A stretch of 64,000 nucleotides of DNA, from assembly GCF_000241325.1 (NCBI RefSeq), contig NZ_BAEI01000057.1, positions 1-64,000 on the forward strand. Direction: 5' to 3'. Below are positions 8,314-56,799 of the stretch, in pieces. The notes beneath the pieces are model-generated. The model made no database searches and had not been told where the DNA came from. It was given only the letters and a program-made list of their open reading frames with translations. Every line of letters begins with the position of its first letter. Position 1 is the first letter of the stretch. The DNA comes from Gordonia polyisoprenivorans NBRC 16320 = JCM 10675. Its GTDB lineage: Bacteria > Actinomycetota > Actinomycetes > Mycobacteriales > Mycobacteriaceae. Both the position numbers and the translations under genes were made by a program.

Positions 8314-8394
8314 GGGAATCCCTTCCTGGTTGCTGCATTCGGCACCGCACTCGTGGCGGCTGTGATCCGCGCCACCCACTATGCCAGGTAAGAA

Positions 8395-8415
8395 TGTCAG
8401 GACAAAGTCTTGACA
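8395..8415 (+). promoter_or_regulatory. TGTCAGGACA operator and -35 box of the iolC operon
   Basis: TGTCAGGACA (8395-8404) is followed by AAGTC and TTGACA (8410-8415), a consensus -35 box. A weak CACAGT at 8434-8439 could be the -10. The spacing and neighbouring bases match the site at 5659-5679 read on the other strand. It lies between iolC and the divergent 8313 oxidoreductase, so one repressor could control both. Confidence 0.68.
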
Positions 8416-8483
8416 TTGCTCTGTGGTGTGCCGCACAGTGGAGGAGCGAACACCGCGAACGACTTACGAGCAGGGAGCAGTCC

Positions 8484-10404: not shown

Positions 10405-10413
10405 GGCAACACC

Positions 10414-11277: not shown

Positions 11278-11307
11278 CCACCACCCACCACTGAGAAAGA
11301 AGTCATC

Positions 11308-13350
11308 GTGGCACCGATCAACCAGGGGCGCGCCGGCGGCGTGACCGGCGTCCGCACCCCGCACGGTGAACCGACCGTCCGGCTGACCGTCGCGCAGGCG
11401 ACCGTGCGCTTCTTGGCCAACCAGTACGTCGAGCGTGACGGCGAGCGGTCGAAGTTCTTCGCCGGCTGTTTCGGCATCTTCGGTCACGGCAACGTCGCCG
11501 GACTCGGACAGGCGTTGCTGCAGAACGAGATCGACGACGTCGATGCCGGGCGCGAGCTGTCGCTGAAGTACGTGCTCGGACGTAACGAGCAGGCGATGGT
11601 GCATTCGGCCGTCGGCTATGCCCGGATGAAGGATCGTCTGCAGTCGTGGGCCGTGACCGCCTCGGTCGGACCCGGTGCCACCAACATGCTCACCGGCGCC
11701 GCACTGGCCACCATCAACCGGATTCCGGTGCTGCTCTTGCCGGCCGATACCTTTGCCACGCGTGCCACCTCCCCGGTGCTGCAGGAGCTGGAGTTGCCCT
11801 CGTCGGGTGATGTCACCGTCAACGATGCGTTCAAGCCGGTCTCGCGGTACTTCGACCGCGTGTGGCGGCCGGAGCAGCTGGCCGGCGCGTTACTCGGCGC
11901 AATGCGAGTGCTGACCGACCCGGTGGAGACCGGCGCCGCGACCGTCGCCATCCCGCAGGACGTGCAGGCCGAGGCGTTCGACTTCCCCGAATCGCTGTTC
12001 GCCGAACGCACCTGGCATGTGGCGCGCCCGCTGCCCGAACGTCGCGTGATCGCCGAGGCAGCCGAGATCATCCGCTCGGCACGCCGACCGCTGATCGTCG
12101 CCGGTGGCGGGGTCATCTACTCCGGTGCCACCGAGGCGCTCGCCGACTTCTGTTCGCGCACCGGCATTCCGGTCGGCCAGAGCCAGGCCGGCAAGGGCTC
12201 GCTGCCCTATGACCACCCACAGTCGGTGGGTGCCATCGGCTCCACCGGCACCACCGCCGCCAACGCGCTCGCCGCCGACGCCGACGTCGTCATCGGGATC
12301 GGCACGCGCTACAGCGATTTCACGACCGCCTCGCGTACCGCGTTCACCGGCGAGGGCGTGCGTTTCGTCAACATCAATGTCGCATCCCTGGATTCGGTCA
12401 AGCATGCCGGCTACAGCGTCGTCGCCGACGCCCGGGAGGCCATCGAGGCGCTCGACGAGCTGCTGGCCGATCACCGCGTCGAGCAGTCCTACCGTGACCG
12501 GGTCGCCGAGCTCGCCGCCGAGTGGGATCGCATCGTCGACGACGCATACTCCCCCACCGCCGTCGGCGTCAACGTCGCCACCGGCGAGGAGGCGCTGACC
12601 CAGGGCTCGGTCATCGGTCTGGTCAACGAGACCTCCGATCCGCGCGACGTGGTGGTGTGTGCCGCCGGATCGATGCCCGGCGATCTGCACAAGTTGTGGC
12701 GGACCCGCGATGCCAAGGGCTATCACGTCGAATACGGGTATTCCTGCATGGGATACGAAGTCGCCGGTGGTCTCGGCGTCAAGATGGCCTGCCCGGACCG
12801 CGACGTGTTCGTCATGGTCGGCGATGGTTCGTATCTGATGATGGCCACCGAATTGGTGACCGCCGTCCAAGAGAACCTGAAGGTCATCGTGGTGCTCGTG
12901 CAGAATCATGGCTTCGCCTCCATCGGCTCGCTCTCGGAGTCGTTGGGGTCGCAGCGATTCGGCACCGACTACCGCTATCGCGGTGAGAGCGGACGCCTCA
13001 ACGGGTCCACGCTTCCGATCGACCTGGCGGCCAACGCCGCATCCCTGGGCGCCGACGTCATCCGTGCCGGCACCGCCGCCGAATTCGCCGACGCCATCAA
13101 GACCGCGAAGGCCGCCGACCGCACCACCGTCATCCACGTCGAGACCGATCCGCTGATCGGTGCCCCCGACAGTGAATCCTGGTGGGACGTCCCGGTATCG
13201 GAGACCTCGACCCTGGAATCCACCCAGCAGGCCTACGGCGTCTACGAGCAGTGGAAAGCCGTCCAGCGCCCCTATCTCGCCCCCACCACGCCGGCCGACT
13301 CCCCTGCGCCGTCGAACAATCCCGCCCCGTCGAACAATGGAGTTCAGTGA
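11308..13350 (+). CDS. iolD: 3D-(3,5/4)-trihydroxycyclohexane-1,2-dione hydrolase
   Basis: A thiamine-diphosphate-dependent enzyme (680 residues, typical is about 640) that opens the inositol ring by hydrolysing the C-C bond of trihydroxycyclohexanedione. The N-terminal PYR domain includes RNEQAMVHSAVGYA with the catalytic Glu. The middle domain has RRPLIVAGGGVIYSGA. The C-terminal PP domain has the ThDP/Mg signature VGDGSYLMMATEL followed by QNHGFASIG. The GTG start at 11308 follows a GAGAAAGAAG ribosome binding site. A Pro/Ala/Ser-rich tail of about 20 residues is extra to the core. The stop overlaps the iolE start (TGATG). Confidence 0.95.
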   Translation: MAPINQGRAGGVTGVRTPHGEPTVRLTVAQATVRFLANQYVERDGERSKFFAGCFGIFGHGNVAGLGQALLQNEIDDVDAGRELSLKYVLGRNEQAMVHSAVGYARMKDRLQSWAVTASVGPGATNMLTGAALATINRIPVLLLPADTFATRATSPVLQELELPSSGDVTVNDAFKPVSRYFDRVWRPEQLAGALLGAMRVLTDPVETGAATVAIPQDVQAEAFDFPESLFAERTWHVARPLPERRVIAEAAEIIRSARRPLIVAGGGVIYSGATEALADFCSRTGIPVGQSQAGKGSLPYDHPQSVGAIGSTGTTAANALAADADVVIGIGTRYSDFTTASRTAFTGEGVRFVNINVASLDSVKHAGYSVVADAREAIEALDELLADHRVEQSYRDRVAELAAEWDRIVDDAYSPTAVGVNVATGEEALTQGSVIGLVNETSDPRDVVVCAAGSMPGDLHKLWRTRDAKGYHVEYGYSCMGYEVAGGLGVKMACPDRDVFVMVGDGSYLMMATELVTAVQENLKVIVVLVQNHGFASIGSLSESLGSQRFGTDYRYRGESGRLNGSTLPIDLAANAASLGADVIRAGTAAEFADAIKTAKAADRTTVIHVETDPLIGAPDSESWWDVPVSETSTLESTQQAYGVYEQWKAVQRPYLAPTTPADSPAPSNNPAPSNNGVQ

Positions 13351-14255
13351 TGTCGAAGATCCTCGTCGGTTCCGCCCCCGACTCGTGGGGCGTCTGGTTC
13401 CCCGACGATCCGCAGCAGACCCCCTACACCCGCTTCCTCGACGAGGTCGCCGCGTCGGGTTATGAGTGGATCGAGTTGGGCCCGTACGGTTATCTGCCCA
13501 CCGATCCACAGCAGTTGCGCGACGAGCTCGGCAGTCGTGGACTGAAGCTCTCGGCCGGCACGGTGTTCGAGCATCTGCACCAGGACGATTCGTGGGATGC
13601 GGTGTGGACTCAGATCGAGGACGTCGCCAAGTTGACCGCAGCCGTCGGTGGCAAGCACGTCGTCGTCATCCCGGAGATGTGGCGCGACCCGGCCACCGGC
13701 GAGGTGCTCGAGGATCGCACGCTCACCGATGAGCAGTGGCGCAAGAAGACCCAGGGCATGAACGAACTGGGCAAGGCGATGTTCGAGAAGTACGGTGTGC
13801 GGGCGCAATACCACCCGCATGCCGACTCCCACGTCGACACCGAGGAGAACATCTACCGGTTCCTGGAGAACACCGACCAGCAGTTCGTGAACCTGTGCCT
13901 GGACACCGGTCACGTCAGCTACTGCGGAGGCGACAACATCGCCATCATCAACGCCCACCCCGACCGCATCGGGTACCTGCACCTCAAGCAGGTCGACGAG
14001 CAGGTTCGGGCCAAGGTCGCCGCCGATGACCTGCCGTTCGGCGAGGCGGTCCGCCTGGGCGCGATGACCGAACCGCCGCGTGGCATCCCGGAGATGCCGC
14101 CGCTGCTCGAGGCCGTCGCCGCTCTCGACATCGACATCTTCGGCATCGTCGAGCAGGACATGTACCCCTGCAGTCCCGATGCCCCGCTGCCCATCGCCCA
14201 GCGCACCCAGAAGTATCTGGGATCGTGCGGTGTGCCGGCCGTCCGTTTCAGCTGA
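13350..14255 (+). CDS. iolE: Inosose dehydratase
   Basis: A TIM-barrel dehydratase (301 residues) of the sugar phosphate isomerase/epimerase superfamily that converts 2-keto-myo-inositol to trihydroxycyclohexanedione. The N terminus GSAPDSWGVWFPDDPQQTPY and the internal YHPHADSHVDT and CLDTGHVSYCGGD provide the metal ligands (Glu, Asp, His). ATG 13350 shares its A with the iolD stop and has GGAG 7 bases upstream. Confidence 0.94.
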   Translation: MSKILVGSAPDSWGVWFPDDPQQTPYTRFLDEVAASGYEWIELGPYGYLPTDPQQLRDELGSRGLKLSAGTVFEHLHQDDSWDAVWTQIEDVAKLTAAVGGKHVVVIPEMWRDPATGEVLEDRTLTDEQWRKKTQGMNELGKAMFEKYGVRAQYHPHADSHVDTEENIYRFLENTDQQFVNLCLDTGHVSYCGGDNIAIINAHPDRIGYLHLKQVDEQVRAKVAADDLPFGEAVRLGAMTEPPRGIPEMPPLLEAVAALDIDIFGIVEQDMYPCSPDAPLPIAQRTQKYLGSCGVPAVRFS

Positions 14256-14306
14256 TTCTCTCTCCCTCCAACTTATTTCACCCCGAACTATTTCACGGAG
14301 TACACC

Positions 14307-15365
14307 ATGACCGACTTGCGTATCGCCGTCCTGGGCGTCGGGATGATGGGTGCCGACCACGTCGCCCGCATCACCGAACGCATCAAGGGCGCCACCGTCA
14401 CCGTCCTCAACGACTACTTCCCGGAGAAGGCCGAGGAACTCGCGGCGACGATTCCGGGCTGCCGGGTGATCAACGATCCGCTCGACGCGATCGCCGATCC
14501 CGATGTCGACGCCGTCATCCTCGCCACCCCCGGTCCCACCCACGAGAAGCAGTTGCTGGCGTGCCTGGAGGCCGGCAAGCCGGTGATGTGCGAGAAGCCG
14601 CTGACCACCGATGTGGCCACCTCCCTGGAGGTCGTCAAGCGGGAAGCGGAGTTGGGGCGCAAGCTGATCCAGGTCGGGTTCATGCGGCGCTTCGATCACG
14701 AATACGAGCAGCTGAAGTCGCTCATCGACGACGGCACCTTCGGGCAGCTGCTGGTGGCGCATTGCGTGCACCGCAACCCGATGGTCCCACCGGGTTTCGA
14801 CTCGGCGATGATCGTCAAGGATTCGATCGTCCACGAGGTCGACGTCACCCGGTTCCTGTTCGACGAGGAGATCGTCTCGGTGCAGATCATCGCGCCGGGT
14901 TCCAATCCGCAGGCGCCCGAGGGCCTCAAGGACCCGCAGATCGCGATCTTCCGTACCGCGTCGGGTCGCCACATCGACGTCGAGTGCTTCGTCACCACCG
15001 GTGTCGCCTACGAGGTGCGCACCGAGGTCGTCGGTGAATTCGGTTCTGCCTTCATCGGTCTCGACCAGGGCGGCGTGGTGCGCAAGCAGCGCAACCCCGT
15101 GCAGTCCAGTGCCGGAGGAAGGAAGGTTGCGGGGATCTGGGGCGGCGATATCACGCCGTCGTTCGTGGAGCGCTTCGGCGCCGCCTACGATGCCGAGATC
15201 CAGCGGTGGGTCAACGCCGTCAAGGCCGGCATCAACGTCGACGGCCCCGGTGCGTGGGACGGTTATGCCGCGGCCGCGGTGTGCGCGGCGGGTGTCAAGG
15301 CTCTCGAGACCGGCGAGATCGTCACCGTCGACATGGTCGACCGCGCATCGATTGCGGGGGCCTGA
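14307..15365 (+). CDS. iolG: myo-inositol 2-dehydrogenase
   Basis: A 352-residue NAD-dependent dehydrogenase catalysing the first step, myo-inositol to 2-keto-myo-inositol. The Rossmann motif AVLGVGMMGADHVARI starts the protein. The catalytic residues fall at Lys97 (CEKPLTT), Asp172 and His176 (DSIVHEVDVTRFL), the same numbers as the B. subtilis enzyme as I recall it. This is the canonical IolG of the window, in contrast to the four other family members. A GGAG site precedes the ATG, 51 bases after iolE. Confidence 0.94.
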   Translation: MTDLRIAVLGVGMMGADHVARITERIKGATVTVLNDYFPEKAEELAATIPGCRVINDPLDAIADPDVDAVILATPGPTHEKQLLACLEAGKPVMCEKPLTTDVATSLEVVKREAELGRKLIQVGFMRRFDHEYEQLKSLIDDGTFGQLLVAHCVHRNPMVPPGFDSAMIVKDSIVHEVDVTRFLFDEEIVSVQIIAPGSNPQAPEGLKDPQIAIFRTASGRHIDVECFVTTGVAYEVRTEVVGEFGSAFIGLDQGGVVRKQRNPVQSSAGGRKVAGIWGGDITPSFVERFGAAYDAEIQRWVNAVKAGINVDGPGAWDGYAAAAVCAAGVKALETGEIVTVDMVDRASIAGA

Positions 15366-15368
15366 TCC

Positions 15369-16244
15369 ATGAAGGTCGCCCTCGATCCCACGCCGTTCCA
15401 TCATTCCCATTCGCTGCTCGAATTGCCGGGCGTGGTCGCCGATCTCGGGTACGAGTACCTGCAGCTGACCCCGCACGTCGACATGATCCCGTTCTTCAAT
15501 CATCCCAAGGCCGACGACGATCTCGTCGCGAGGTTTCGCCGGGCGTGCAAGGACGCCGGCGTCGGAATCGCTTCGGTGCTACCGGTATTGCGGTGGTCCG
15601 GGCCCGACGAGGACGCCCGCGAGGCGGCCGTGCGCTACTGGAAACGCGCCATCCAGATCACCGTCGATCTGGGCGTGAACGTGATGAACACCGAGTTCTC
15701 CGGTCGTCCGGAGAAGCCGGAGGAGTCCGAGCGGGCCTTCTACCGGTCGATGGAGGAACTCGTGCCGATCATCGAACGTGAGGGCATCGACGTCCGGATC
15801 GATCCGCACCCAGATGATTTCGTGGAGGACGGGTTGGCCGCGATCCGCATGATCCGCGGGATCAACTCGAAGAACTTCGGTTTGGTCTACGTCGCCTGCC
15901 ACAGCTTCCACATGGGCGGCAACATGCGGGAGATCATGACGACCGCCGGTGACATGCTTCGCCTGGTGCACGTGGCCGACACCATGGATCATCGTGCCTC
16001 ACACGGGCTTCGCTACATCACCAACCCGCCCGGTAACGCCGTACGCGTGCACCAGCACCTCAAGATCGGCGACGGCGACGTCAATTGGGACGAGTTCTTC
16101 GGCACACTCGGCGAGATCGGCTTCTACGACCGCGACGACTCGGTCATGGTGTCGAGTGTGTTCGCCGAGAACGAGAACGCCGACGAGGTGTCCCGCTACC
16201 AGCTCGCCACGATGAACGACTACGTCGCCAAATTCCGTCCCTGA
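15369..16244 (+). CDS. iolH: Sugar phosphate isomerase/epimerase, inositol catabolism protein
   Basis: A 291-residue TIM-barrel protein of the AP-endonuclease-2-like (Pfam AP_endonuc_2) superfamily, commonly named IolH when it lies in iol operons. Metal-binding positions are visible in MNTEFSGRPE, RIDPHPDDFVEDG and CHSFHMGGN. It begins 3 bases after the iolG stop. The biochemical step of IolH is not well settled; it may act as an isomerase or auxiliary dehydratase on inososes. Confidence 0.85.
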   Translation: MKVALDPTPFHHSHSLLELPGVVADLGYEYLQLTPHVDMIPFFNHPKADDDLVARFRRACKDAGVGIASVLPVLRWSGPDEDAREAAVRYWKRAIQITVDLGVNVMNTEFSGRPEKPEESERAFYRSMEELVPIIEREGIDVRIDPHPDDFVEDGLAAIRMIRGINSKNFGLVYVACHSFHMGGNMREIMTTAGDMLRLVHVADTMDHRASHGLRYITNPPGNAVRVHQHLKIGDGDVNWDEFFGTLGEIGFYDRDDSVMVSSVFAENENADEVSRYQLATMNDYVAKFRP

Positions 16245-16343
16245 CCCCGTTCACCGACACACCCCGCTCACTGCCCACACACCCAGTCCCCCACTGATTT
16301 CGGCGTCGCGTGACTGCACACGTCGCAGAACAGGAGTACCTCC

Positions 16344-17837
16344 ATGTCCACCACCGTCTCCCACTGGGCCAACAACAAGCCCTACCCGGGTACCTCGAAT
16401 GCCACTGCGCCGGTGACGAATCCGGCGACCGGACAGGTCACCGGGCAGGTCGCGTTGGCCAATGACGCCGACGCCCGCGCGGTGATCGACGCCGCCGCGG
16501 CGGCGTTCCCCGCCTGGCGTGACACCTCGCTGGCCAAGCGCACCTCCATCCTGTTCCGCTTCCGGGAACTGCTCAACGAGCGCAAGGGCGAGCTGGCTCA
16601 GATCATCACCGCCGAACACGGCAAAGTCCTCTCCGACGCCCTCGGCGAGATCTCCCGCGGCCAGGAAGTCGTCGAATTCGCCTGCGGCATCCCGCACCTG
16701 CTCAAGGGCGGATTCACCGAAAACGCCTCCACCAAGGTCGACGTCTTCAACATCCGCCAACCCCTCGGACCCATCGGCATCATCTCCCCCTTCAACTTCC
16801 CCGCCATGGTCCCCATGTGGTTCTTCCCCATCGCCATCGCCGCCGGCAACACCGTGGTCCTCAAACCCTCCGAAAAGGACCCCACCGCGTCGATCTGGCT
16901 GGCCGAACTCTGGAAAGAAGCCGGACTGCCCGACGGCGTGTTCAACGTCCTACAAGGCGACAAGACCGCCGTCGACGAACTACTCACCAACCCGTCGATC
17001 AAATCCATCAGCTTCGTCGGCTCCACCCCGATCGCCCAATACGTCTACGCCACCGGCACCGCCGCGGGTAAACGCGTCCAAGCCCTCGGCGGCGCGAAAA
17101 ACCACGCCATCATCCTGCCCGACGCCGACCTCGACCTCGCCGCCGACGCCATGGTCAACGCCGGCTTCGGCTCCGCCGGCGAACGCTGCATGGCCATCAG
17201 CGTGGCCGTGGCCGTCGGCGACATCGCCGACGAACTGGTCGCCAAGATCACCGAACGCGCCCGAACCATCACAACCGGTGACGGCACCAAGAACTCCGAC
17301 ATGGGACCGCTGGTCACCGCCGCCCACCGCGACAAGGTCGCCTCCTACGTCGACGCCGGCGAACAAGCCGGCGCGACCGTCGTTCTCGATGGCCGTGGTG
17401 TCGAAGCGGACGGCGGAGCCGACGGGTTCTGGTTGGGGCCAACCCTGTTCGACAACGTCACCCCCGACATGAGCATCTACACCGACGAAATCTTCGGACC
17501 CGTCCTGTCGGTCGTGCGCGTCGACTCCTACGACCAAGCCCTCGAACTGATCAACTCCAACCCCTACGGCAACGGCACCGCCATCTTCACCAACGACGGC
17601 GGCGCCGCCCGACGCTTCCAGAACGAAGTCGAAGTCGGCATGGTCGGCATCAACGTCCCCATCCCCGTCCCCATGGCCTACTACAGCTTCGGCGGCTGGA
17701 AAGCCTCCCTCTTCGGCGACACCCACGCCCACGGCACCGAAGGCATCCACTTCTTCACCCGCGCCAAAGCCATCACCAGCCGCTGGCTCGACCCCTCCCA
17801 CGGCGGACTCAACCTCGGCTTCCCCCAGAACGCCTGA
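16344..17837 (+). CDS. iolA: Methylmalonate/malonate-semialdehyde dehydrogenase (CoA-acylating)
   Basis: An aldehyde dehydrogenase superfamily member (497 residues) of the MmsA/IolA type, converting malonic semialdehyde to acetyl-CoA and CO2. Signature segments are IISPFNFPAMVPMWFFPIA, the NAD-binding FVGSTPIAQYVY, the catalytic Cys282 in GERCMAIS, and the C-terminal FGGWKASLFGDTHAHG. AGGAG precedes the ATG. It lies 99 bases after iolH and completes the pathway. Codon choice changes from about 16610: GAA, CAA, CCC and GTC replace the GAG, CAG, CCG and GTG favoured by neighbours, with a short return near 17380-17450. A strong hairpin terminator follows at 17916. Confidence 0.93.
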   Translation: MSTTVSHWANNKPYPGTSNATAPVTNPATGQVTGQVALANDADARAVIDAAAAAFPAWRDTSLAKRTSILFRFRELLNERKGELAQIITAEHGKVLSDALGEISRGQEVVEFACGIPHLLKGGFTENASTKVDVFNIRQPLGPIGIISPFNFPAMVPMWFFPIAIAAGNTVVLKPSEKDPTASIWLAELWKEAGLPDGVFNVLQGDKTAVDELLTNPSIKSISFVGSTPIAQYVYATGTAAGKRVQALGGAKNHAIILPDADLDLAADAMVNAGFGSAGERCMAISVAVAVGDIADELVAKITERARTITTGDGTKNSDMGPLVTAAHRDKVASYVDAGEQAGATVVLDGRGVEADGGADGFWLGPTLFDNVTPDMSIYTDEIFGPVLSVVRVDSYDQALELINSNPYGNGTAIFTNDGGAARRFQNEVEVGMVGINVPIPVPMAYYSFGGWKASLFGDTHAHGTEGIHFFTRAKAITSRWLDPSHGGLNLGFPQNA

Positions 17838-17915
17838 GATCAACTCCCCGGAGGATCACGCCTGTGCGATGAGTCGGCGTACGGCGGCTACCTGAGTCGA
17901 CGCATCCACACCCGG

Positions 17916-17959
17916 GAATCCCGCTCGCGGCACGCCCCCGCTGCGAGCGGGATTCTTTG
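17916..17959 (+). terminator. Rho-independent-type terminator after mmsA
   Basis: A perfect 13-bp inverted repeat, GAATCCCGCTCGC (17916-17928) and GCGAGCGGGATTC (17943-17955), with a 14-base loop and a following TTTG tract. It ends the iol operon. The right arm is also the start of the 96-bp direct repeat described next. Confidence 0.8.
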
Positions 17960-18033
17960 TGTGGTGGTCCGGAACCAGCATCACGGCAAGCGGTCTCGAG
18001 GCTCGGCGCACGCGCCTCGCACCTCGACCATCG
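17938..18033 (+). repeat. 96-bp direct repeat, copy 1 (contains dispersed element copy C)
   Basis: It is identical to 18191-18286 except for one base (CATCACGG versus CACCACGG). It starts with CCGCTGCGAGCGGGATTC, the right arm of the mmsA terminator, and ends with CACCTCGACCATCG. The dispersed element occupies 17992-18030. The copies are 253 bases apart. Confidence 0.92.
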
Positions 18034-49162: not shown

Positions 49163-49465
49163 CTAGACGAGCCCGCCGAAGCCGCGTGCGATCGAGGTAT
49201 CGGTCTCGTTCATCACCGTCCGCGCATTGGTGACGCCGCGCTGGATGCCGAGCAACTGCTCGCGGGCCTGCATGAACACGCGGTCCCAGTTCTGCTGGGC
49301 GGCGTCGTAGGCCTGCTTCGCGCCGGGCGAGCGCCAATTGCCGTCGAGTGCGGCGACTTGAGATTTCAGCTGCGACGCCAGGTCTTCGAGGCGGCCGAAC
49401 TGGGCGTTCAGTCCCCCTTCGAGGTCGCCGAGGGCGGCGAAGTCGTACTTGATTCTCCCGGACAT
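49163..49465 (-). CDS. WXG100-family protein, EsxA-like
   Basis: A 100-residue small secreted ESX substrate of the WXG100 helical-hairpin type. The turn between the two helices reads GNWRSPGAKQAYDAAQ, so the motif is Trp-x-Ser rather than Trp-x-Gly. The helices on either side are rich in Ala/Gln/Leu and the C terminus is IARGFGGLV. It is probably secreted as a heterodimer with the 49627 gene product. It is last in the leftward operon. Confidence 0.85.
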   Translation of the reverse strand: MSGRIKYDFAALGDLEGGLNAQFGRLEDLASQLKSQVAALDGNWRSPGAKQAYDAAQQNWDRVFMQAREQLLGIQRGVTNARTVMNETDTSIARGFGGLV

Positions 49466-49506
49466 GGGAAGTCCTTTCGGTCAGATGTGGTCATGGCCAG
49501 AGTTGA

Positions 49507-49573
49507 TCGAGCTCGGTGGTGATTCGAGCTCGGTGGTGGTCGAGCTCGGTGGTGATTCGAGGTCAGTGGTGAG
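49507..49573. repeat. 17-bp tandem repeat between the two esx genes
   Basis: Four units of about 17 bp, pattern TCGAGCTCGGTGGTGAT, begin at 49507, 49524, 49540 and 49558, the last degenerate (CGAGGTCAGTGGTGAGG). They lie in the 161-base gap between the two WXG100 genes, a gap usually short in esx pairs. Confidence 0.85.
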
Positions 49574-49626
49574 GTGCGCCAGTCGGGCCGGGGCCCACAG
49601 ACACGGTGGTCTACAGCGGCAGCGGT

Positions 49627-49944
49627 CTACAGGCGCAGCGGCCCCTCGGCGCCGAAGCCGCCCGCGGCCTGCGAATCCTGGTCGTCGTAGCCGCTGAAAC
49701 CAGCGGTCAACTGGTTCCGGATGTCGTCGAGAGCGGCGTTGAGCGCCGTCGCCGACGAGTTCCAGTCGGTGTGGGTGTTGTCGAATGCGTTGGACGCCCG
49801 GCCGTTCCAGCTGGACACGCCCGTCGACGCCGCGGTGGCGATCTGCCGGATCACCGCCTGCATGTCGTCGACGATCTGCGAGACCGATTGCGCTGTGGCC
49901 AAGCCTGATTCGACGTCGACGTCAACTGCTCCATCGAGATTCAT
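49627..49944 (-). CDS. WXG100-family protein, EsxB/CFP-10-like
   Basis: A 105-residue WXG100 protein. The canonical WNG turn is in GVSSWNGRASNAFDNTHTDW, preceded by a helix with VSQIVDDMQAVIRQIATAA and followed by a second helix and a flexible Gly/Asp-rich tail. ATG 49944 has GAGGAGGAGCACC upstream, a very strong ribosome binding site; the longer frame to 49971 has none. It is the probable partner of the 49163 protein. The secretion machinery is not in the window. Confidence 0.88.
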   Translation of the reverse strand: MNLDGAVDVDVESGLATAQSVSQIVDDMQAVIRQIATAASTGVSSWNGRASNAFDNTHTDWNSSATALNAALDDIRNQLTAGFSGYDDQDSQAAGGFGAEGPLRL

Positions 49945-50058
49945 GGTGCTCCTCCTCATAGATGTCGGCACCGTCGTCGCGATGCCCCCGAAGCGCTGTC
50001 CGTGCGGACAGGCGCTGATGTCCCCCGGCGAAGATCTCGATGGGGAAATCCCGTCGAC

Positions 50059-50892
50059 TCATGGGAACCACCGTCGTCCGGGCAGGGTGTCGATCAGCCG
50101 GTCCACGGCCGCACCGATCCGATGCCCCGTTCCCGGGGTGATGGTGGTCCACAATCTGTCGTCGGGAGATCTGCTGAGGCCCATCAGAATTCGACCCGCA
50201 CGCGAGTCGATGATCCCGATGGCCCCAGAAGTCTGGGTGAAGGCGCCGCCGGCACGCGAGGTGGCCACGATCTCCCACCGCACGTCGCAGGACAGCAACG
50301 CGTCGGCCACACGGATCGCATCGGCGGCCGTGGCGCCCCATGCACGCAGTGCCGCAACAACACCGGCGGTGTCGGCACAGTGGCCGAACCTCTCGGCCAG
50401 TTCGCGGGTGGGGACGCTGGTCTCGGTGAAGTCCAGTGCGTCGTGCGGGCCGCACGTCGCGCGAACGACGCCCGCCAGGGCGTTGGTGTCACGCACGTCG
50501 AGGAGGGCGAGGTCGAGGTGATCGCCTCGCCGCACCGCGAGAACGTGGTCGTGACCGCGCCGGGCCACGCAGGCGCGAACCGTCGAATCGGTGGCGAAAC
50601 CCCGGATCTCGAGTTCCCGGTCGGGGTGGGCGAGCACCCCGAGCACCAGGTCGGCCCACAGCGTGGGGCCGCTGCTGTCGACGAGTCCCGCCTCCGTGAT
50701 GGCACGGTCCAGAGTGGCATCGTCGTGATCGGCAAGGCCTCGGGTGTCGGCTCCTGTCTCGCTGTGTGCACCGTCGGCCGCCGGCGTCCAGAGGTCGAGG
50801 ACCACCGGCCAGGTGGTGACCCCACATCGTTGCCCGAGTCGGCGCAATACCGCGATCTCGAGGCGGCGGGAATCGGTGGAGGTCACGATCAC
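50059..50892 (-). CDS. espG: ESX secretion chaperone EspG
   Basis: A 277-residue EspG-family protein; EspG binds the tip of PE-PPE heterodimers in the cytoplasm and delivers them to a specific ESX system. The fold is recognised from the start RRLEIAVLRRLG and the overall mixed alpha/beta pattern ending DRLIDTLPGRRWFP. GTG 50892 overlaps the stop of the PPE-like gene (GTGA) with GGGAGGA 5 bases upstream, so it is translated coupled to its presumed client. EspG is normally found only in ESX-1, -2, -3 and -5 loci, not ESX-4. Confidence 0.8.
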   Translation of the reverse strand: MIVTSTDSRRLEIAVLRRLGQRCGVTTWPVVLDLWTPAADGAHSETGADTRGLADHDDATLDRAITEAGLVDSSGPTLWADLVLGVLAHPDRELEIRGFATDSTVRACVARRGHDHVLAVRRGDHLDLALLDVRDTNALAGVVRATCGPHDALDFTETSVPTRELAERFGHCADTAGVVAALRAWGATAADAIRVADALLSCDVRWEIVATSRAGGAFTQTSGAIGIIDSRAGRILMGLSRSPDDRLWTTITPGTGHRIGAAVDRLIDTLPGRRWFP

Positions 50893-51887
50893 GGCGTCCT
50901 CCCCGTGTCCAGGATGAGGGTCTGCTCGACGTATCGGGGGTCGAGCGCCGTGCTCGACTGTGCGGCGACCTCGGCCCAGGTTTCCGGAGGGCGTGGGGAC
51001 GCTTCGGCCTGCCCGATCTCGGCCTGTGCCTGGGTATCGACGCGGACGACACGGTCGCCCATCGATGCCGTCGAGGTCATCGGTGCCATGGGCGGAGGTA
51101 GCGCGGACGACGCTCCGGACGTCGTCGATCCCGCCTGACCCGCGCCGGCGGTGGTGACCGCCGTGGGTGACGCGGCGGGCGCCGAGGCCACCATCGTCGG
51201 CGTGTACGCACCCCGAGGAGTCGGCGCCGAGAGCATCATCGGCGCAACGATTCCCGTGCCCGCGCCCGACCCATGACCCGCGGCGGCGGGGACGACCGGC
51301 GTCTGCGGCGATCGGCTCGACGTGGTGACCGGCGGGGTGTCGGGCACCAGTTGTGGTGCGGAACAGGGAGCTCGCCAGGGCTGTGCCAGCGGCTCGGCGG
51401 CCGTTTCGTAGGCCTCCATCACCCGTGCCGCGCGCATCCGTTGATCGTGGACCGCGCGTTCGGCGTGCGCGGCCGCCCCGGTGGCGATCGGCGCGACCGA
51501 GGCGACGACCGCCGCACCATGCGCGAGCGTGTCGGCGAGATCGACCTCCGCGGTGCTCGGCATCGCCAGGCGCGCCACCGACACGGCGAGTGACTGCGCC
51601 TCGGTCATCGCCGCAGCTTCGGTGGCCTGCGCCGCCATGTCGGTCAACCATCCGAGGAGATCGTCGAGGCGGTCGAGGGCGTCGGTGGCTGCGCCGGACT
51701 CCCAGTCGGCCCGCAGTCGTGCGAGGACGGCTCCGTATTCGGCTGCTGCGCCGGTGAACTCACCGGCGAGTGCGCCCCAGGCGATCGCGGCGTCGGCGAA
51801 CGCCGACGCTCCGGGTCCCTCGACGAGGTCGCTCGCGAGTCGGCGACTGGTACGGGTGTCCCAGAGGACTCCGGTGAATCCGGTCAT
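50889..51887 (-). CDS. PPE-family-like ESX substrate
   Basis: A 332-residue protein with a PPE-type N-terminal domain (residues about 1-150): GVLWDTRTSRRL, then EGPGASAFADAAIAWGALAGEF, then ADWESGAATDALDRLDDLLGWL. The helical pattern and Trp-x-x-Gly turn match PPE proteins, but the Pro-Pro-Glu tripeptide itself is missing. The C-terminal half is Pro/Ala/Ser/Thr-rich and disordered. ATG 51887 follows AGGAG at 5 bases. It is coupled to espG. Confidence 0.75.
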   Translation of the reverse strand: MTGFTGVLWDTRTSRRLASDLVEGPGASAFADAAIAWGALAGEFTGAAAEYGAVLARLRADWESGAATDALDRLDDLLGWLTDMAAQATEAAAMTEAQSLAVSVARLAMPSTAEVDLADTLAHGAAVVASVAPIATGAAAHAERAVHDQRMRAARVMEAYETAAEPLAQPWRAPCSAPQLVPDTPPVTTSSRSPQTPVVPAAAGHGSGAGTGIVAPMMLSAPTPRGAYTPTMVASAPAASPTAVTTAGAGQAGSTTSGASSALPPPMAPMTSTASMGDRVVRVDTQAQAEIGQAEASPRPPETWAEVAAQSSTALDPRYVEQTLILDTGRTP

Positions 51888-51982
51888 GCCCACTCCTCTC
51901 GGCTGCTCGGTGGGTTGGTCGGGATGACGGTCTACGGACGGGGTTCAGGTGGTCATGCGGTCGTCGGCGCCTGGGGCCGTCG

Positions 51983-52300
51983 TCAGGTCCGCAGTCCGGT
52001 CGCGGCTTGATCGTCGGCGTCGGCGAGGTCGCCGGCGTGGGACCGCAGCATCGCCGCGATGTTGCGCAGTTGTTCGATGCCGGAGGTCGCGTCCTCGGCG
52101 AAGCGATCGGCCACCGCGGTGGCCGAGGCCGCCGTGGTCACCGATACCTCGTCTCGACCGGGCGCGGCGACTGCGGCCTCCGCGGCGAGTCGTCCGAGCG
52201 CTTCTTTCAGGGACAGCGCCAGACGTTCGAGATCGGCGCAGGCCCTGGACAACTCATGCGGATCGACGTCCACGTTGCCGGTGGTTGGTGACGGTGTCAC
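51983..52300 (-). CDS. Small PE/EspC-like ESX substrate
   Basis: A 105-residue all-helical protein. It starts TTGNVDVDPHELSRACADLERLA, like the VxPxxL start of PE and EspC proteins, and has a second helix AVADRFAEDATSGIEQLRNIA ending in SHAGDLADADDQAATGL. It lies immediately upstream of the PPE-like gene, the place a PE partner takes in PE/PPE pairs. GTG 52300 has AAAGGTCAG upstream. Whether it is PE or EspC type cannot be settled by eye. Confidence 0.65.
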   Translation of the reverse strand: MTPSPTTGNVDVDPHELSRACADLERLALSLKEALGRLAAEAAVAAPGRDEVSVTTAASATAVADRFAEDATSGIEQLRNIAAMLRSHAGDLADADDQAATGLRT

Positions 52301-52334
52301 GGGCTGACCTTTCTGATGGTGACGAGCACTGGAC

Positions 52335-53699
52335 TCATCGGGGTGAGACCGGCCCGGCCGGACCGAGTCGTAATTCGATGTCGGGCGGGGTCTCCGGGTC
52401 GGCGTCGGCGCCGAGCACGGCGGGAGCGACGTCCGCGACGCCGCCGACCATCTGCTTTCCGTTGTCCTCGGTCACCAGATAATCGGGAACCTCGTGGGTG
52501 TCGTCGGACGACCCGGCCCCGCGTGCAGCCCCGGCGGCGGCCATCGGCGCCATCGATGCCGGCATCGGTGTGGCGGTCCCGGAGGCCGCACGCGCCGGGG
52601 AGGCCGGGGTGTAGCTCGCCGGTTCGGTGGCACCGACGACGGGCATCCCGGAACGGGCCGCGCCCAGCGGCGCGGTGATCGCCGTACCACCGGCCCCACC
52701 ACCGCCGCGGCCGGCACCACCGGCGCCCATCGGCATCGCACCCAGACCGGCCGGGCCGCCGCCGGGCCCGGAAGGCCCACCGGCGCCGTCCTCCGGCGCG
52801 ACATATGCGGCCGGCCGGACCGCCGTATCGTCGGCGGCCAGCACCTGCTGCAGTGGTGCGGTGAGCATCGAGGGGATCTCGGTGGCCGTGGAGATCACCG
52901 GGGACACCGCGTCGAGGATCGTGCCGGCGAGGGCAAACGGTGACTGCGTAGCACCGGCTGCGCCGGTGGGCGCGTTGGTGACCGGCACAGGCGCCCCGTT
53001 CACGGTCATGTGGGTTGTGGGAGCCAGCAATTGGGCCCGCGTGGCAGCGACGGCGGCGGTCGCCTCGGACAGTCCGAGGCCGGCCAGGCTCACTGCGAGT
53101 GGCAGGGCCGCCGGCCCGGTGAACGAGACGGCCGCGGTGATCTTGGCGATGGTGGCGGCCAGGATGGCCTGCAGGGTTGCCACACCGGCGGCGACGATGC
53201 CCGCGGCGGCCTGGATGTCGAAGGACATGCCGCTGCCCTGCGCTGCGAGTTGCCCACTGTTGACGCTCGCCTCACCGGTTTTCGCAGCCGCCGACACCGC
53301 GCTCTGACCACCCCACACCTCGTCGGCGATCTTCAGGGCGGCCTGCGCCATCGACATCGACGACTCGAGCATCGTGGACAGCCCCTGGAAGATGACCGTC
53401 GGATCGAAGTCGGCCGCCGACAGGTCGCCGGTCCCGAAGCTGCCGAGCAGATCGGTGATCGGTTTGACGAGCAGACCGACGTCGATGACCGGTAGTGGCG
53501 GCAGCCCTGGAAGCGGTGGCAACGGCGGGAACTCGGGCAGCGGCGGAAGTCCCAACCCCGCCAGCACGTCGCCGACCGGCCGGTCGAGGATCGGTCCGAG
53601 CGGTGTCGCCGCGATCATGTCGTTGACCGACATCTCGGTGAGCGCCGGGAACTCGGGCCGCCCGGAGGTGGGCTGCCCGGAGACGGACGGTTGACTCAC
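52335..53699 (-). CDS. Large ESX-associated protein, possibly EspA/EspE-like
   Basis: A 454-residue protein with a Pro-rich N-terminal segment (LPPLPEFPPLPPLPGLPPLP), a central helical region containing ADEVWGGQSAVSAAAKTGEA, where Trp-Gly-Gly resembles a WXG turn, and a hydrophobic stretch (ILAATIAKITAAVSFTGPAALPLAVS). A Gly/Pro/Ala-rich tail ends in an acidic domain. GTG 53699 overlaps the stop of the PE-like gene (GTGA). The order PE-like then this protein is like a PE-PPE pair or EspC-EspA pair. Family assignment is tentative. Confidence 0.6.
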   Translation of the reverse strand: MSQPSVSGQPTSGRPEFPALTEMSVNDMIAATPLGPILDRPVGDVLAGLGLPPLPEFPPLPPLPGLPPLPVIDVGLLVKPITDLLGSFGTGDLSAADFDPTVIFQGLSTMLESSMSMAQAALKIADEVWGGQSAVSAAAKTGEASVNSGQLAAQGSGMSFDIQAAAGIVAAGVATLQAILAATIAKITAAVSFTGPAALPLAVSLAGLGLSEATAAVAATRAQLLAPTTHMTVNGAPVPVTNAPTGAAGATQSPFALAGTILDAVSPVISTATEIPSMLTAPLQQVLAADDTAVRPAAYVAPEDGAGGPSGPGGGPAGLGAMPMGAGGAGRGGGGAGGTAITAPLGAARSGMPVVGATEPASYTPASPARAASGTATPMPASMAPMAAAGAARGAGSSDDTHEVPDYLVTEDNGKQMVGGVADVAPAVLGADADPETPPDIELRLGPAGPVSPR

Positions 53700-54004
53700 A
53701 GCACCGACCGCAGGGTTGCGGCGGAGGCGGCGTCGACGGCCTCGAATTCGGCGAGGCCGCCGAGTGCGCTCGCCGCAGTCGCCGCGTGGACGGCGGCCAG
53801 GTTGCCGACCGCGAACAGGTGATTGGCCTGTGCAGCAATGAATGCCGCGAGGAATTCTTGCCCGATCAGTCCGAACACGGGGATCATGACCGCCGTGTTC
53901 GCGGCGGCGTTGACCGACCCGGCCGCAGCCACCGCAGTACCGATCGCGGCGTTGGTCGCCGCGAAGCCCTCGAGGACCTCCGGTGTCACCGTCACATGAT
54001 TCAT
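53696..54004 (-). CDS. PE-family-like ESX substrate
   Basis: A 102-residue helical-hairpin protein. It starts VTVTPEVLEGFAATNAAIGTA and has a second helix with GQEFLAAFIAAQANHLFAVG, much like the PE domain, though the Pro-Glu pair is followed by Val rather than the usual Ala/Leu. ATG 54004 follows GGGGGAGAAC. Coupled by GTGA to the 52335 gene. Confidence 0.7.
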   Translation of the reverse strand: MNHVTVTPEVLEGFAATNAAIGTAVAAAGSVNAAANTAVMIPVFGLIGQEFLAAFIAAQANHLFAVGNLAAVHAATAASALGGLAEFEAVDAASAATLRSVL

Positions 54005-54016
54005 GTTCTCCCCCTT

Positions 54017-54091
54017 GCCATGTCATCTACTGCCACGTCATCTACAGCCATGTCATCTACAGCCACGTCATCTACAGCCACGTCGTCGACT
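54017..54091. repeat. 15-bp tandem repeat, five units
   Basis: Units GCCAYGTCATCTACW at 54017, 54032, 54047, 54062 and 54077; the variable base alternates T, C, T, C, C and the last unit has drifted. It lies between the YbaB-like gene and the PE-like gene, just upstream of the latter's ribosome binding site. Its 15-base period keeps reading frame, giving a VAVDD/MAVDD peptide on the minus strand, but no gene start supports this being translated. Confidence 0.9.
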
Positions 54092-54125
54092 TCAGTCACG
54101 CTCGTCGATGTCACCGCGCGGTCGG

Positions 54126-54464
54126 TCACCGCGACCCGTCCGGCCGCGACTGCACCAACTCCGCGAATGACGCGGTGAAGTCTTCGGTCATCGCAGCTCG
54201 TCGGGCGAATGCTCGTTGGGCGGCGAGCATGGCCGTCGCCACGATCCCGGAGCCGAGGCGGGCGCCACCGAGCTCGCCGGCCCCATCGGCGAGCCACAAC
54301 CCCGTCATCGCCCCGGATCCATCGACCTCCACGGTGATCAGATCGTCGGCGGAGCTCTCCCGGACCCGAATCCGCGCCAGCTCGTCGGAGAAGTCGTGTA
54401 GACGGCCCAGTTGGGTGATCGCGCGGGATTCGAGTTCGTCCATCGCCGAGTTCATCGCACTCAC
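54126..54464 (-). CDS. YbaB/EbfC-like protein, EspL-like
   Basis: A 112-residue protein of the YbaB/EbfC nucleoid-associated type found in ESX loci (EspL in ESX-1). The first helix MDELESRAITQLGRLHDFSDEL leads to the strand region DDLITVEVDGSGAMTGLWL and a C-terminal helix. GTG 54464 overlaps the stop of the next upstream gene (GTGA). In ESX-1, EspL stabilises co-secreted substrates; the role here is inferred. Confidence 0.7.
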   Translation of the reverse strand: MSAMNSAMDELESRAITQLGRLHDFSDELARIRVRESSADDLITVEVDGSGAMTGLWLADGAGELGGARLGSGIVATAMLAAQRAFARRAAMTEDFTASFAELVQSRPDGSR

Positions 54465-54808
54465 ACCGACCTGAGCCAGGACGCGGGTGCGTCGGCCTCG
54501 TCGTCGTCGCGCAGCTCGGCGCCGGCCAGATCGTCGGGCCTGGGCAGACCGAGCGACTCGACCACCTCCGATGGCGTCCCGGACTCGAGCAGCCGAGCGC
54601 GCAGCCGGATCGCCGAAGCCATCGCCGACTGTTGGCACAATCGAAGAACGTCGTCGGCCACGGCCTGGGGATGTTTGCGCAGCTGGGTGTCGTCGATACG
54701 CACCGCCAGCGGCAGGCCCGCCGGCGTCGTGATCACCGAGATCGCCCCATCCCGCGATCGCGCCGAGGATGTCTCCTCGACCCCACCACCGAGATCCTCG
54801 CCGGTCAT
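54461..54808 (-). CDS. Second YbaB/EbfC-like small protein
   Basis: A 115-residue acidic protein with the YbaB-like pattern ARSRDGAISVITTPAGLPLAV followed by a helix RKHPQAVADDVLRLCQQSAMA. The C terminus is Asp/Glu-rich. ATG 54808 follows GGAGGGCCA; the frame extends to GTG 54823. It is first in the leftward ESX operon and coupled to the EspL-like gene by GTGA, suggesting the two may pair. Confidence 0.6.
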   Translation of the reverse strand: MTGEDLGGGVEETSSARSRDGAISVITTPAGLPLAVRIDDTQLRKHPQAVADDVLRLCQQSAMASAIRLRARLLESGTPSEVVESLGLPRPDDLAGAELRDDDEADAPASWLRSV

Positions 54809-55221
54809 TGGCCCTCCCCCCACGTCGATTACTCCCTGTACCGCAGCGGCGTCCGCGCCGCCGCTGATGTGCGATGTCCTGGTTGGACGCAGCGGGAGCG
54901 GTCAGGGTTCCCACTCGACCGGAACTTTTTCGACCGTTGCCGATGACCTCCGCTGACGGTGTTGAGATGATGCCACAGATCACATGCGGTGTCCGGTTTG
55001 CGCGTGATGTCTGGGGATAACCCCGGAGTCGTCGGAGCCCTCTTGCTGTCACGGGCCTCTTACGACGCCCCGTCGTCACCGCCCCCGACCCGGATCGTTG
55101 CTCGGCGTGACGCTCACCATTCACGATCCGACACCCATGGGTACACTCCCCAGCGTGGTGACGTCCGTCCCGCCGAGCGGGCGGACCCATGTCACCGGGA
55201 ATCACCTTGCAGGGGGAAGCG
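54809..55221. other. 413-bp divergent region between the ESX operon and the EspI-like gene
   Basis: It must hold promoters for both directions. It contains a T-rich stretch near 54925-54933 and scattered short inverted repeats, but I see no clear -35/-10 pair, operator or RNA element. Confidence 0.55.
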
Positions 55222-56799
55222 ATGACGCACGAGAACAACGGACATCCATCGGCGATGATGCCCGCAACCCCACCATGGTTGCAGTTCGCACCTCCCGAGG
55301 ACGCGTCACGAACCGGCGATGCACCGACCGAACCCGCACACGGAACCGAAGCACCGGGCGAGGCCGTTGCCGGCTTCGGCGTCGACCGACAACCGTTTCC
55401 CCCGTCCCCAACGGAATCCCCGGCCCCGGGCACACCGACCGACGGCGCACCCACCAGCGCAGCACCCGCCGGTCCGGTCCCCGCCGATGCAGCACCGGAG
55501 CACCCGGCACCGGCGAGCTCTTCCACTCCTGCGGCGCCGGCACCGCCGCCGCAGTCGCACCACGCACCGTCCCCCCCGGCCAACGGATACCAGGCACCTC
55601 ACGAGGCACCCCAGCACCCTCAGCACAACCAGCCCGCACCGGGATACCCGTACGCGCCCAACGGGTTCGACCCCTCGGCGCACGGGTACACGCCCGGCCC
55701 CATGCCCACCGGACCCACCCCGCCCGGACCCGTGCCCTCGGGTCCGGCCCCCGGCGCACCGACGCCCCCGCACATGCCGCCCGCGCCGGCCGGCTACGCA
55801 CCGCCGCCGGACAACGGCTACGCCCAGCCGATGGGATTCGGGTCGCCGACGCCGCAACAGGGACCGGCTCTCGACGAGGTCGCCCTGCTGCGCAAGGCTC
55901 GCCGAGCCCCCGCCCGCGGCTGGCGGCGGGCGGTGCACACGATCTCGGCCGGCACCATCAATCCCGGCGACTCCGCCACCGAGATCCGGTACCAGCAACT
56001 ACTCGAGCGGTTGCGTCGACCGGTTCGCGGTGATTACCGCATCGCGGTGCTCTCCCTGAAGGGTGGTGTCGGAAAGACCACCACGACAGTCGGTTTGGGC
56101 TCGACCTTCGCCTCCCTGCGCGGCGACCGGGTGATCGCCGTCGACGCCAACCCCGACCTGGGAACACTGGCTCAGCGGGTCCCGCAGCAGACGGCGTCGA
56201 CCGTGCGTAATCTGCTCTCCGACGACAACGTCTACCGCTACAGCGATGTGCGCGCCCACACCTCACAGGCACCGTCGCGTCTGGAAGTACTTGCCTCCGA
56301 ACGGGACCCGGCCATGGCCGAAGCATTCAGCGAGGACGAGTACCGCGGCGTGGTCACCATCCTCCAACGCTTCTACAACATCATCATCACCGACTGCGGG
56401 ACCGGCCTGAGCCACTCGGCGATGAACGGCGTGCTCGACCTGGCGAACGCCATCATCCTGGTCTCGTCGCCGGCGCTGGACGGCGCCCGTAGCGCCTCGG
56501 CCACACTCGATTGGCTCGAGGCCCACGGATACGGTCACCTGGTGTCGCGCGCGGTCGTCGTACTCAGCTCGTCGCGCCCGGGGTCATCGACCATCGACAC
56601 CGATCAATTGGGTCAGCACTTTCTGACGCGATGCCGTGCGGTACAGACGATTCCGTTCGACGATCATCTCGCCGAGGGCGCCGACGTCGATCTCGAGCTC
56701 GTCGGCAAGCCCACCCGTTTGGCGTTCGTCGAGCTCGCCGCGACCATCGCCGACGAGTTCGCGCCGACGGTTCGCCGCGAGGAACCGTTCTACGGCTGA
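55222..56799 (+). CDS. EspI-like MinD/ParA-type ATPase with Pro-rich N terminus
   Basis: A 525-residue protein. Residues 1-210 are Pro/Ala-rich and disordered (PPHMPPAPAGYAPPP-type). Residues about 270-515 are a MinD/ParA-type P-loop ATPase with deviant Walker A LKGGVGKTTTTVGLG and Asp-containing DANPDLGTLAQRV. It is the layout of EspI (Rv3876, ESX-1) and Rv3888c (ESX-2), which sit beside their ESX loci and are linked to regulating secretion with ATP level. ATG 55222 follows AGGGGGAAG. It is divergent from the ESX operon. Confidence 0.83.
   Translation: MTHENNGHPSAMMPATPPWLQFAPPEDASRTGDAPTEPAHGTEAPGEAVAGFGVDRQPFPPSPTESPAPGTPTDGAPTSAAPAGPVPADAAPEHPAPASSSTPAAPAPPPQSHHAPSPPANGYQAPHEAPQHPQHNQPAPGYPYAPNGFDPSAHGYTPGPMPTGPTPPGPVPSGPAPGAPTPPHMPPAPAGYAPPPDNGYAQPMGFGSPTPQQGPALDEVALLRKARRAPARGWRRAVHTISAGTINPGDSATEIRYQQLLERLRRPVRGDYRIAVLSLKGGVGKTTTTVGLGSTFASLRGDRVIAVDANPDLGTLAQRVPQQTASTVRNLLSDDNVYRYSDVRAHTSQAPSRLEVLASERDPAMAEAFSEDEYRGVVTILQRFYNIIITDCGTGLSHSAMNGVLDLANAIILVSSPALDGARSASATLDWLEAHGYGHLVSRAVVVLSSSRPGSSTIDTDQLGQHFLTRCRAVQTIPFDDHLAEGADVDLELVGKPTRLAFVELAATIADEFAPTVRREEPFYG

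Follow-up and report, generated by a model that had tools for sequence, protein, structure and literature searches.

Which secretion machine could be served by a group of ESX (type VII secretion) substrate and chaperone genes that has no membrane core beside it? This question is raised by ten genes at positions 49163 to 56799 of a stretch of DNA from Gordonia polyisoprenivorans NBRC 16320 (genome G000, 6.28 Mb); the stretch is the first 64 kb (the window in the following) of the 199-kb contig NZ_BAEI01000057.1 (C57). A first-pass annotation, made from the window alone, had proposed either an island of substrate genes standing on its own, exported by a core at another place, or an ESX variant of separate specificity. 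The analyses described here indicate that the locus is a real, conserved feature, the cargo half of what is most likely a scattered ESX system, with a predicted function as a secretion module. Our preferred reading, to which we assign a probability of about 0.8, is that a single ESX system has its parts scattered over the chromosome, that this operon encodes its substrates and chaperones, and that the scattered core most likely serves the operon. Both earlier proposals turned out to be apt: wherever the flanks were fetched, the operon lies apart from a core, and its exporter would most likely be a scattered core that is particular to this lineage.

Gene content of the operon and location of the core genes

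The genome of G. polyisoprenivorans holds two sets of core genes, one in a linked cluster and one scattered. The linked ESX on contig C22 (about 11.8-50.2 kb) is complete, with eccA to eccE, mycP, and its own espG, PE, PPE, and Esx pair, and its gene order parallels that of the operon. The scattered set comprises eccC-eccD-mycP on C29 (L019) beside rplM/rpsI, divergent eccB and eccE genes on C109, and a lone eccA on C75 beside purL, where rplM, rpsI, purL, and the other flanking genes are what we take them to be from their sequences. At L019, 221 bp separate rplM from the next gene and an ispH-like gene follows mycP, while eccB is on another contig. The arrangement of eccC-eccD-mycP beside rplM/rpsI was read gene by gene in L019 and six further loci, and G021 and G048 also have a lone eccA beside purL, which thus occurs in genomes that possess EspG and in genomes that lack it (L168, L169, L170). 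On the whole of C57, the own-genome search gave no match to EccB, EccE, or the YukD domain of EccD, and no EccC or EccA was among the matches listed (unlisted ones were weak); a tblastn search at the site found no MycP near the operon. The earlier observation that no core genes lie in the window is borne out. The genes of the locus are the following.

49163..49465, minus strand: Esx1, WXG100 protein of 100 amino acids (PF06013, 7e-12)
49627..49944, minus strand: Esx2, WXG100 protein that carries the YxxxD export motif at its C-terminus (PF06013, 1.5e-11; searched as 49627-49971)
50059..50892, minus strand: EspG, chaperone of the PE-PPE pair (PF14011, 1e-44)
50889..51887, minus strand: PPE protein (PF00823, 3e-19; searched as 50889-51893)
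51983..52300, minus strand: PE protein (PF00934, 1e-13)
52335..53699, minus strand: EspE/EspA-like protein of 454 amino acids with W-x-G and a Gly/Pro-rich C-terminal half (name inferred)
53696..54004, minus strand: EspC-like protein (PF10824, 4.5e-6)
54126..54455 (alternative GTG start at 54464), minus strand: YbaB-like protein 2, candidate chaperone (PF02575, about 3e-5)
54461..54808, minus strand: YbaB-like protein 1, candidate chaperone (PF02575, 0.05-0.06)
55222..56799, plus strand: EspI-like P-loop ATPase, divergent (PF13614, 8e-11; searched from 55225)

The transcription order on the minus strand is YbaB1, YbaB2, EspC-like, EspE-like, PE, PPE, EspG, Esx2, and Esx1, with the EspI-like gene divergent on the plus strand (start at 55222; a proline-rich N-terminus followed by a ParA/MinD-type P-loop domain). 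The gene set of the first-pass annotation was confirmed; in profile searches, PE, PPE, EspG, EspC, and both WXG100 proteins are above the curated Pfam cut-offs and the two YbaB-like proteins below. One correction concerns the small proteins: the PE gene is 51983-52300, and the other small gene, 53696-54004, encodes the EspC-like protein. The coupling by GTGA overlaps that it described was found at three junctions, at 54464 (YbaB1/YbaB2), 53699 (EspC/EspE), and 50892 (PPE/EspG).

The EspG match to PF14011 (153 bits) covers positions 5-244 of 245, and the PPE and PE domains score 70 bits (cut-off 26) and 51.7 bits (cut-off 22), respectively. Profile searches against PDB matched EspG with EspG1 (1e-17), EspG3 (1e-12), and EspG5 (3e-6), PPE with PPE4 (2e-5) and PPE41 (8e-4 to 1e-3), and Esx1 with ESAT-6 (E 0.003); for the EspE-like and YbaB-like proteins, they yielded only spurious-looking matches. 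YbaB2, searched as 54126-54464, reaches 24.4 bits (3.3e-5), under the PF02575 cut-off of 25.5; YbaB1 scores weakly here, and 23 of 32 orthologues match the family at E <= 0.1, the best at 2.3e-4. A Pfam search with the EspE-like protein gave no match, and its 32 orthologues gave one weak WXG100 and one weak collagen match. Its name was chosen because W129-x-G131 is invariant across these 32 orthologues and because the gene adjoins that of EspC. W-x-[GS] is present in 52/52 Esx1 orthologues. The C-terminal signals are likewise retained, Y...[DE] in 52/53 Esx2 orthologues (12.6% in shuffles) and [YF]...[DE] in 44/50 EspC-like orthologues (7.7% in shuffles).

A chance grouping of these genes is excluded, because the gene order recurs throughout the genus and the ratio of non-synonymous to synonymous substitution rates (dN/dS) is below 0.46 in every gene in comparisons with two relatives. 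Recent acquisition was rejected on the basis of the G+C content (67-73% in the operon, 64-68% in the flanks) and of the plasmid records, 4 of 72,556 of which contain EspG relatives with 28-33% identity. An Rfam scan gave no match, and a scan for promoters and terminators found no more than expected by chance. Elsewhere in the window, the region 7000-18000 has genes like those of an inositol catabolism cluster (which we presume them to be) and is ordinary. On the other contig, inside the linked ESX cluster at C22:17471-22093, an open frame of 1540 amino acids resembles a large WXG-type effector and is followed by repeated open frames (about 15-17.5 kb; L016, L017).

Distribution and phylogeny of operon and core

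All 59 Gordonia genomes that a search of the genus offered were examined. The genus-wide core searches covered EccB, EccE, EccC, and EccA; 16 candidates per genome were scored for EccC and 19 for EccA, so that any number of extra copies is a minimum. A home-made script that sometimes favours an antisense frame supplied the gene calls for the fetched loci. In complete or reduced form, the operon was detected in 58 of the 59 genomes. EspG was detected in 40 genomes, and in 33 the operon includes PE-PPE-EspG, at the same site and in the same order as far as the stretches reach. None of these 33 loci, in stretches of up to 19 kb, gave a match to the queried proteins (one set or other of EccA-EccE/MycP). 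The outcome that would have refuted the earlier proposal, core genes adjoining the set in relatives and a split confined to this strain, was not found in the 32 further Gordonia genomes with PE-PPE-EspG, within the up to 19 kb around the operon that were fetched for each. A split specific to this strain was rejected, as the unlinked layout recurs in 58/59 genomes. EspI was seen at the site in 25 of the 33 full-operon loci by a motif scan (tblastn missed it in 10/33).

The loci of the other 26 genomes were located via the neighbouring SAHH gene (25/26 found, 20 fetched) and, for eight genomes, via the places of WXG100 matches. In 25 of them the operon lacks the PE-PPE-EspG triple or has part of it; the exception is G014, where a contig edge ends the locus. 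Contig edges also account for G039, which shows the Esx pair only, and G030, which shows EspE and the Esx pair only. In G012, the operon adjoins DedA, CDF, and APC genes but no longer SAHH. Each of the 58 loci yielded Esx2, and 57 of them yielded Esx1, which tblastn missed in G029.

As for the core genes, EccB was found in 58/59 genomes and EccE in 58, in 56 of them with a score above the cut-off; matches above the cut-off were obtained in 57 genomes for EccC and in 58 for EccA. EccE adjoins EccB, and MycP adjoins EccC, in 20/20 fetched loci each. Because EspG lies within about 4 kb of EccB in 9/59 genomes only, 29 of the 33 full-operon genomes, which show no linked cluster and one EccB gene each, have the scattered core alone, as far as detected. 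Where operon EspG and EccB are on one contig, they are 254-351 kb apart in 12 of 13 Gordonia genomes; in G034, they lie near opposite ends of a 5.17-Mb contig, 4.87 Mb apart, or about 0.3 Mb if the contig is circular. In 10 genomes of two other genera there was one EccB match each, and one EspG match each among the 12 candidates scored per genome. The operon also recurs, next to APC and SAHH as in Gordonia, in the three EspG loci that were fetched from these genera.

In ESX systems, motors of the EccC type generally function together with a WXG100 pair. Exactly two PF06013 matches were present in 27/59 genomes, and both were inside the operon in 25 of the 27; in G046 and G047, a place was listed for only one of the two. 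Since the motor works with such a pair, the operon pair is the sole detected candidate partner of the sole detected core in 25 genomes, with the proviso that a divergent WXG100 protein under the cut-off could escape this census.

Quick trees with support from the Shimodaira-Hasegawa-like approximate likelihood ratio test (SH-aLRT) only, in which the scattered EccB and EccC rows came from 20/59 genomes and our own, point in the same direction. In the EccB tree, the scattered proteins of Gordonia (21 rows) group with those of the two other genera (10 rows) in a single clade (SH-aLRT 98) that is separate from the linked Gordonia clusters. A scattered clade of Gordonia and the two genera was also found for EccE (99), and the scattered Gordonia copies of EccC form a clade (99); the MycP tree gave no resolution. 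The 33 Gordonia EspG proteins from the operon likewise form one clade (99). A common history of operon and scattered core is suggested by the EspG and EccB trees, which place both nearest to the same linked clusters, those of G006/G033/G037/G041 (92 and 88, not starred). The C22 cluster lies farther from the operon EspG and from the scattered EccB in both trees. The EspI proteins of operon and C22 are 57% identical over 310 amino acids and the EspG proteins 28% identical, and the Esx proteins have no significant similarity. Based on the EspG and EccB trees and these identities, the operon as a duplicate of the C22 cluster was rejected.

The central PE-PPE-EspG cassette has been lost repeatedly. 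When mapped onto a tree built from three housekeeping proteins of the neighbourhood (56 rows, of which 53 could be given a state and 3 were excluded as edge or missing cases), the presence of PPE shows four changes and that of EspG five, and the outgroup has both. PE, PPE, and EspG are also the fastest evolving proteins, with dN/dS values of 0.22-0.45 vs. 0-0.19 for the other seven genes (two comparisons).

Several other EspG-like genes were encountered. At L085-L089 (G039, G010, G006, G043, and G009), near lipA or glnA-like genes, a short EspG-like match covers the C-terminal half of the EspG family and was called as a gene of 151-170 amino acids in four of these five loci; in G006, G009, G010, and G043, the operon retains PPE, not EspG. 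Distant EspG-like genes adjoin proteins of 430-500 amino acids at L083 (G033), L084 (G041), L090 (G006), and C22:28188-30403, and are perhaps chaperone-effector pairs. In addition, nine loci of other genera contain a bare PE-PPE-EspG triple without the other genes of the operon (L171, L172, L175, L179, L182, L183, L184, L185, and L186) and without a match to core proteins within about 10 kb. In eight of the nine, the triple is flanked by what is presumably a small metallopeptidase-like gene on one side and by presumable phosphoglycerate mutase/pheA genes on the other, in some cases separated from it by one or two genes, and L184 shows only the metallopeptidase-like side. The bare triple is a second kind of free-standing module.

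Weighing of the explanations

A number of observations speak against a single scattered system. Our genome and three other carriers have a complete linked ESX, which could also serve the operon. In G033, no scattered EccB, EccE, EccC, or EccA was detected and the linked cluster remains (L095, L160, L161); its operon has kept EspI, EspC, EspE, and the Esx pair, no YbaB, PE, PPE, or EspG was seen there, and it is possible that it uses another core. No WXG100 match was found in G014 by the PF06013 search. EspI was not found in 8 of the 33 full-operon loci, in four of which the contig ends (G011, G028, G040, and G046), while there would be room in the other four (G001, G020, G037, and G053). The EccC tree leaves the nearest linked cluster unresolved, and EspG of three genomes of the other genera joins the Gordonia clade at 87 only. 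The PE protein of the window lacks a C-terminal [YF]xxx[DE] signal, and among its orthologues Y...[DE] occurs in 9/38 (24%; shuffles 4%) and [YF]...[DE] in 24/38 (63%; shuffles 35-36%). The cassette is not always lost as a unit: PE-PPE without EspG was found at the site in G041 and G006, and PPE without EspG in G009, G010, and G043. Over four independent pairs, PPE and EspG change in the same direction in about three and never in opposite directions, which is not significant, and common descent explains much of the co-occurrence of the genes.

The presence of a complete linked cluster with a parallel gene order raises the alternative that the operon of G. polyisoprenivorans depends, as a satellite, on the C22 ESX, whose machine would be its main exporter, and G033, which keeps part of the operon with a linked cluster alone detected, fits this idea. 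However, 29 of the 33 full-operon genomes are without a linked cluster, the EspG and EccB trees put neither the operon EspG nor the scattered EccB inside the C22 branch, and between the two loci the Esx proteins lack significant similarity and the EspG proteins share just 28% identity, so that we regard this alternative as unlikely. The parallel gene order would also fit a partial duplication of a linked ESX that widens the cargo range, similar to the mycobacterial ESX-5a/b/c or ESX-6, and the lack of core genes is shared with ESX-5a as described in the available text of PMC4852179. Yet the operon occurs in 58/59 genomes and linked clusters in 9/59, in 25 genomes no WXG100 pair other than its own was detected, and the operon EspG and scattered EccB are not inside the linked clusters of the same genomes, all of which makes a duplication very improbable. 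Equally hard to credit is a decaying or repurposed remnant, the proteins of which are no longer exported: although PE, PPE, and EspG show faster evolution and repeated loss, dN/dS is low across all ten genes, the YxxxD/E motif of Esx2 is retained in nearly all orthologues, and Esx2 and Esx1 are present in 58/58 and 57/58 loci, respectively.

Proposed mechanism, origin, and relation to known systems

If the operon is indeed the cargo half of the scattered system, its products would form three substrate pairs, Esx1-Esx2, PE-PPE, and EspC-EspE. EspG would serve PE-PPE as a chaperone, as solved for EspG relatives (PDB), the two YbaB-like proteins most likely assist EspC-EspE, and EspI may be a regulator that depends on ATP. 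Delivery of the pairs to an EccC motor most likely relies on a C-terminal [YF]xxxD signal on one partner, which would be Esx2 for Esx1-Esx2 and EspC for EspC-EspE; for PE-PPE the signal is patchy. The core would consist of EccC-EccD-MycP encoded beside rplM/rpsI, EccB-EccE encoded elsewhere, and EccA encoded beside purL, and export of the operon proteins through it is predicted from gene content and phylogeny. The species that keep the remainder of the operon with the PE-PPE-EspG cassette present, partly lost, or absent represent a natural deletion series. Many of them, in which a single core and a single WXG100 pair were detected, are genetically simple hosts for studying ESX cargo recognition and the contribution of PE-PPE.

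The positions of the parts suggest how the scattered layout may have arisen. The operon lies 3-8 kb from truA/rplQ/rpoA in our genome, G021, G013, and G048, and a few kb from the same ribosomal cluster in G067. ESX-4 of M. tuberculosis presumably lies between truA and rplM. The simplest account would be one truA-rplM locus that was broken by rearrangement before Gordonia and the two other genera split. A bolder and rather doubtful version is that the ancestral ESX at this place was a full system with PE-PPE, EspG, EspI, EccA, and EccE, which was torn in Gordonia and the two genera into two parts, a substrate operon on the truA side and a motor on the rplM side, that still form one machine. If so, the PE/PPE-free mycobacterial ESX-4 would be a reduced descendant, not a primitive form, and PE-PPE export via a core at the ESX-4 place would be ancient.

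The scattered core shares with ESX-4 (type VIIa secretion system) the position of eccC-eccD-mycP beside rplM/rpsI and a gene in the position of Rv3446c, the place of which in the M. tuberculosis ESX-4 locus we assume. The ESX-4 locus includes esxT/esxU and eccB. In our genome, by contrast, no WXG100 pair lies between rplM and the gene in the Rv3446c position, and eccB does not adjoin mycP; the Gordonia system furthermore has PE, PPE, EspG, EccA, and EccE. ESX-2 has linked eccA2-eccE2 and mycP2 genes together with espG2, PE, and PPE. The resemblance to the substrate half of ESX-2 that the first-pass annotation had noted is only partly apt: the YbaB-like proteins and the pair of EspC-like and EspE-like proteins are reminiscent of ESX-1. 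No core gene is near the operon.

In ESX-1, EspC-like and EspE-like genes also adjoin YbaB-like genes, and the YbaB-like proteins EspD, EspH, and EspL are proposed to steady EspA/EspC and EspE/EspF, according to the available text of PMC6107294 and PMC6319747; the sequence similarity of the Gordonia proteins to these pairs is weak, and their pairing is presumed. EspI of ESX-1 is described in the portion available of PMC11302016 as lowering secretion at low ATP. The ESX-5a/b/c loci of M. tuberculosis resemble the operon in that they contain Esx, PE, and PPE genes without a core and are proposed to use a core elsewhere, but the accessible part of PMC4852179 presents them as four-gene duplicates (two esx, PE, and PPE) of a linked ESX-5, whereas the Gordonia operon has its own chaperones and EspI and is no copy of the linked cluster, the linked ESX of its own genome not being its closest relative in the EspG and EccB trees or by paralogue identity.

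As far as the available text of PMC4791881 (Newton-Foot 2016) goes, the genes of ESX-4EVOL form one cluster, and Gordonia is named for ESX-4 and not among the ESX-4EVOL species. The Gordonia parts, in contrast, are in at least four places, with the 254-351 kb between operon EspG and EccB in the 12 genomes given above. Among the open-access titles and abstracts listed by the literature search on Gordonia, Nocardia, and Tsukamurella (subscription papers were outside its scope), none describes an unlinked PE-PPE-EspG operon in these genera. In the accessible passages of two papers, ESX-4 is stated to be the only type VII secretion system in non-mycobacterial Actinomycetota including Gordonia (PMC11217815, 2024), and PE and PPE genes are stated to be absent outside Mycobacterium (PMC1660551, 2006). 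Against these statements, 58 of 59 Gordonia genomes carry the operon without a linked machine, and 33 of them carry PE, PPE, and EspG.

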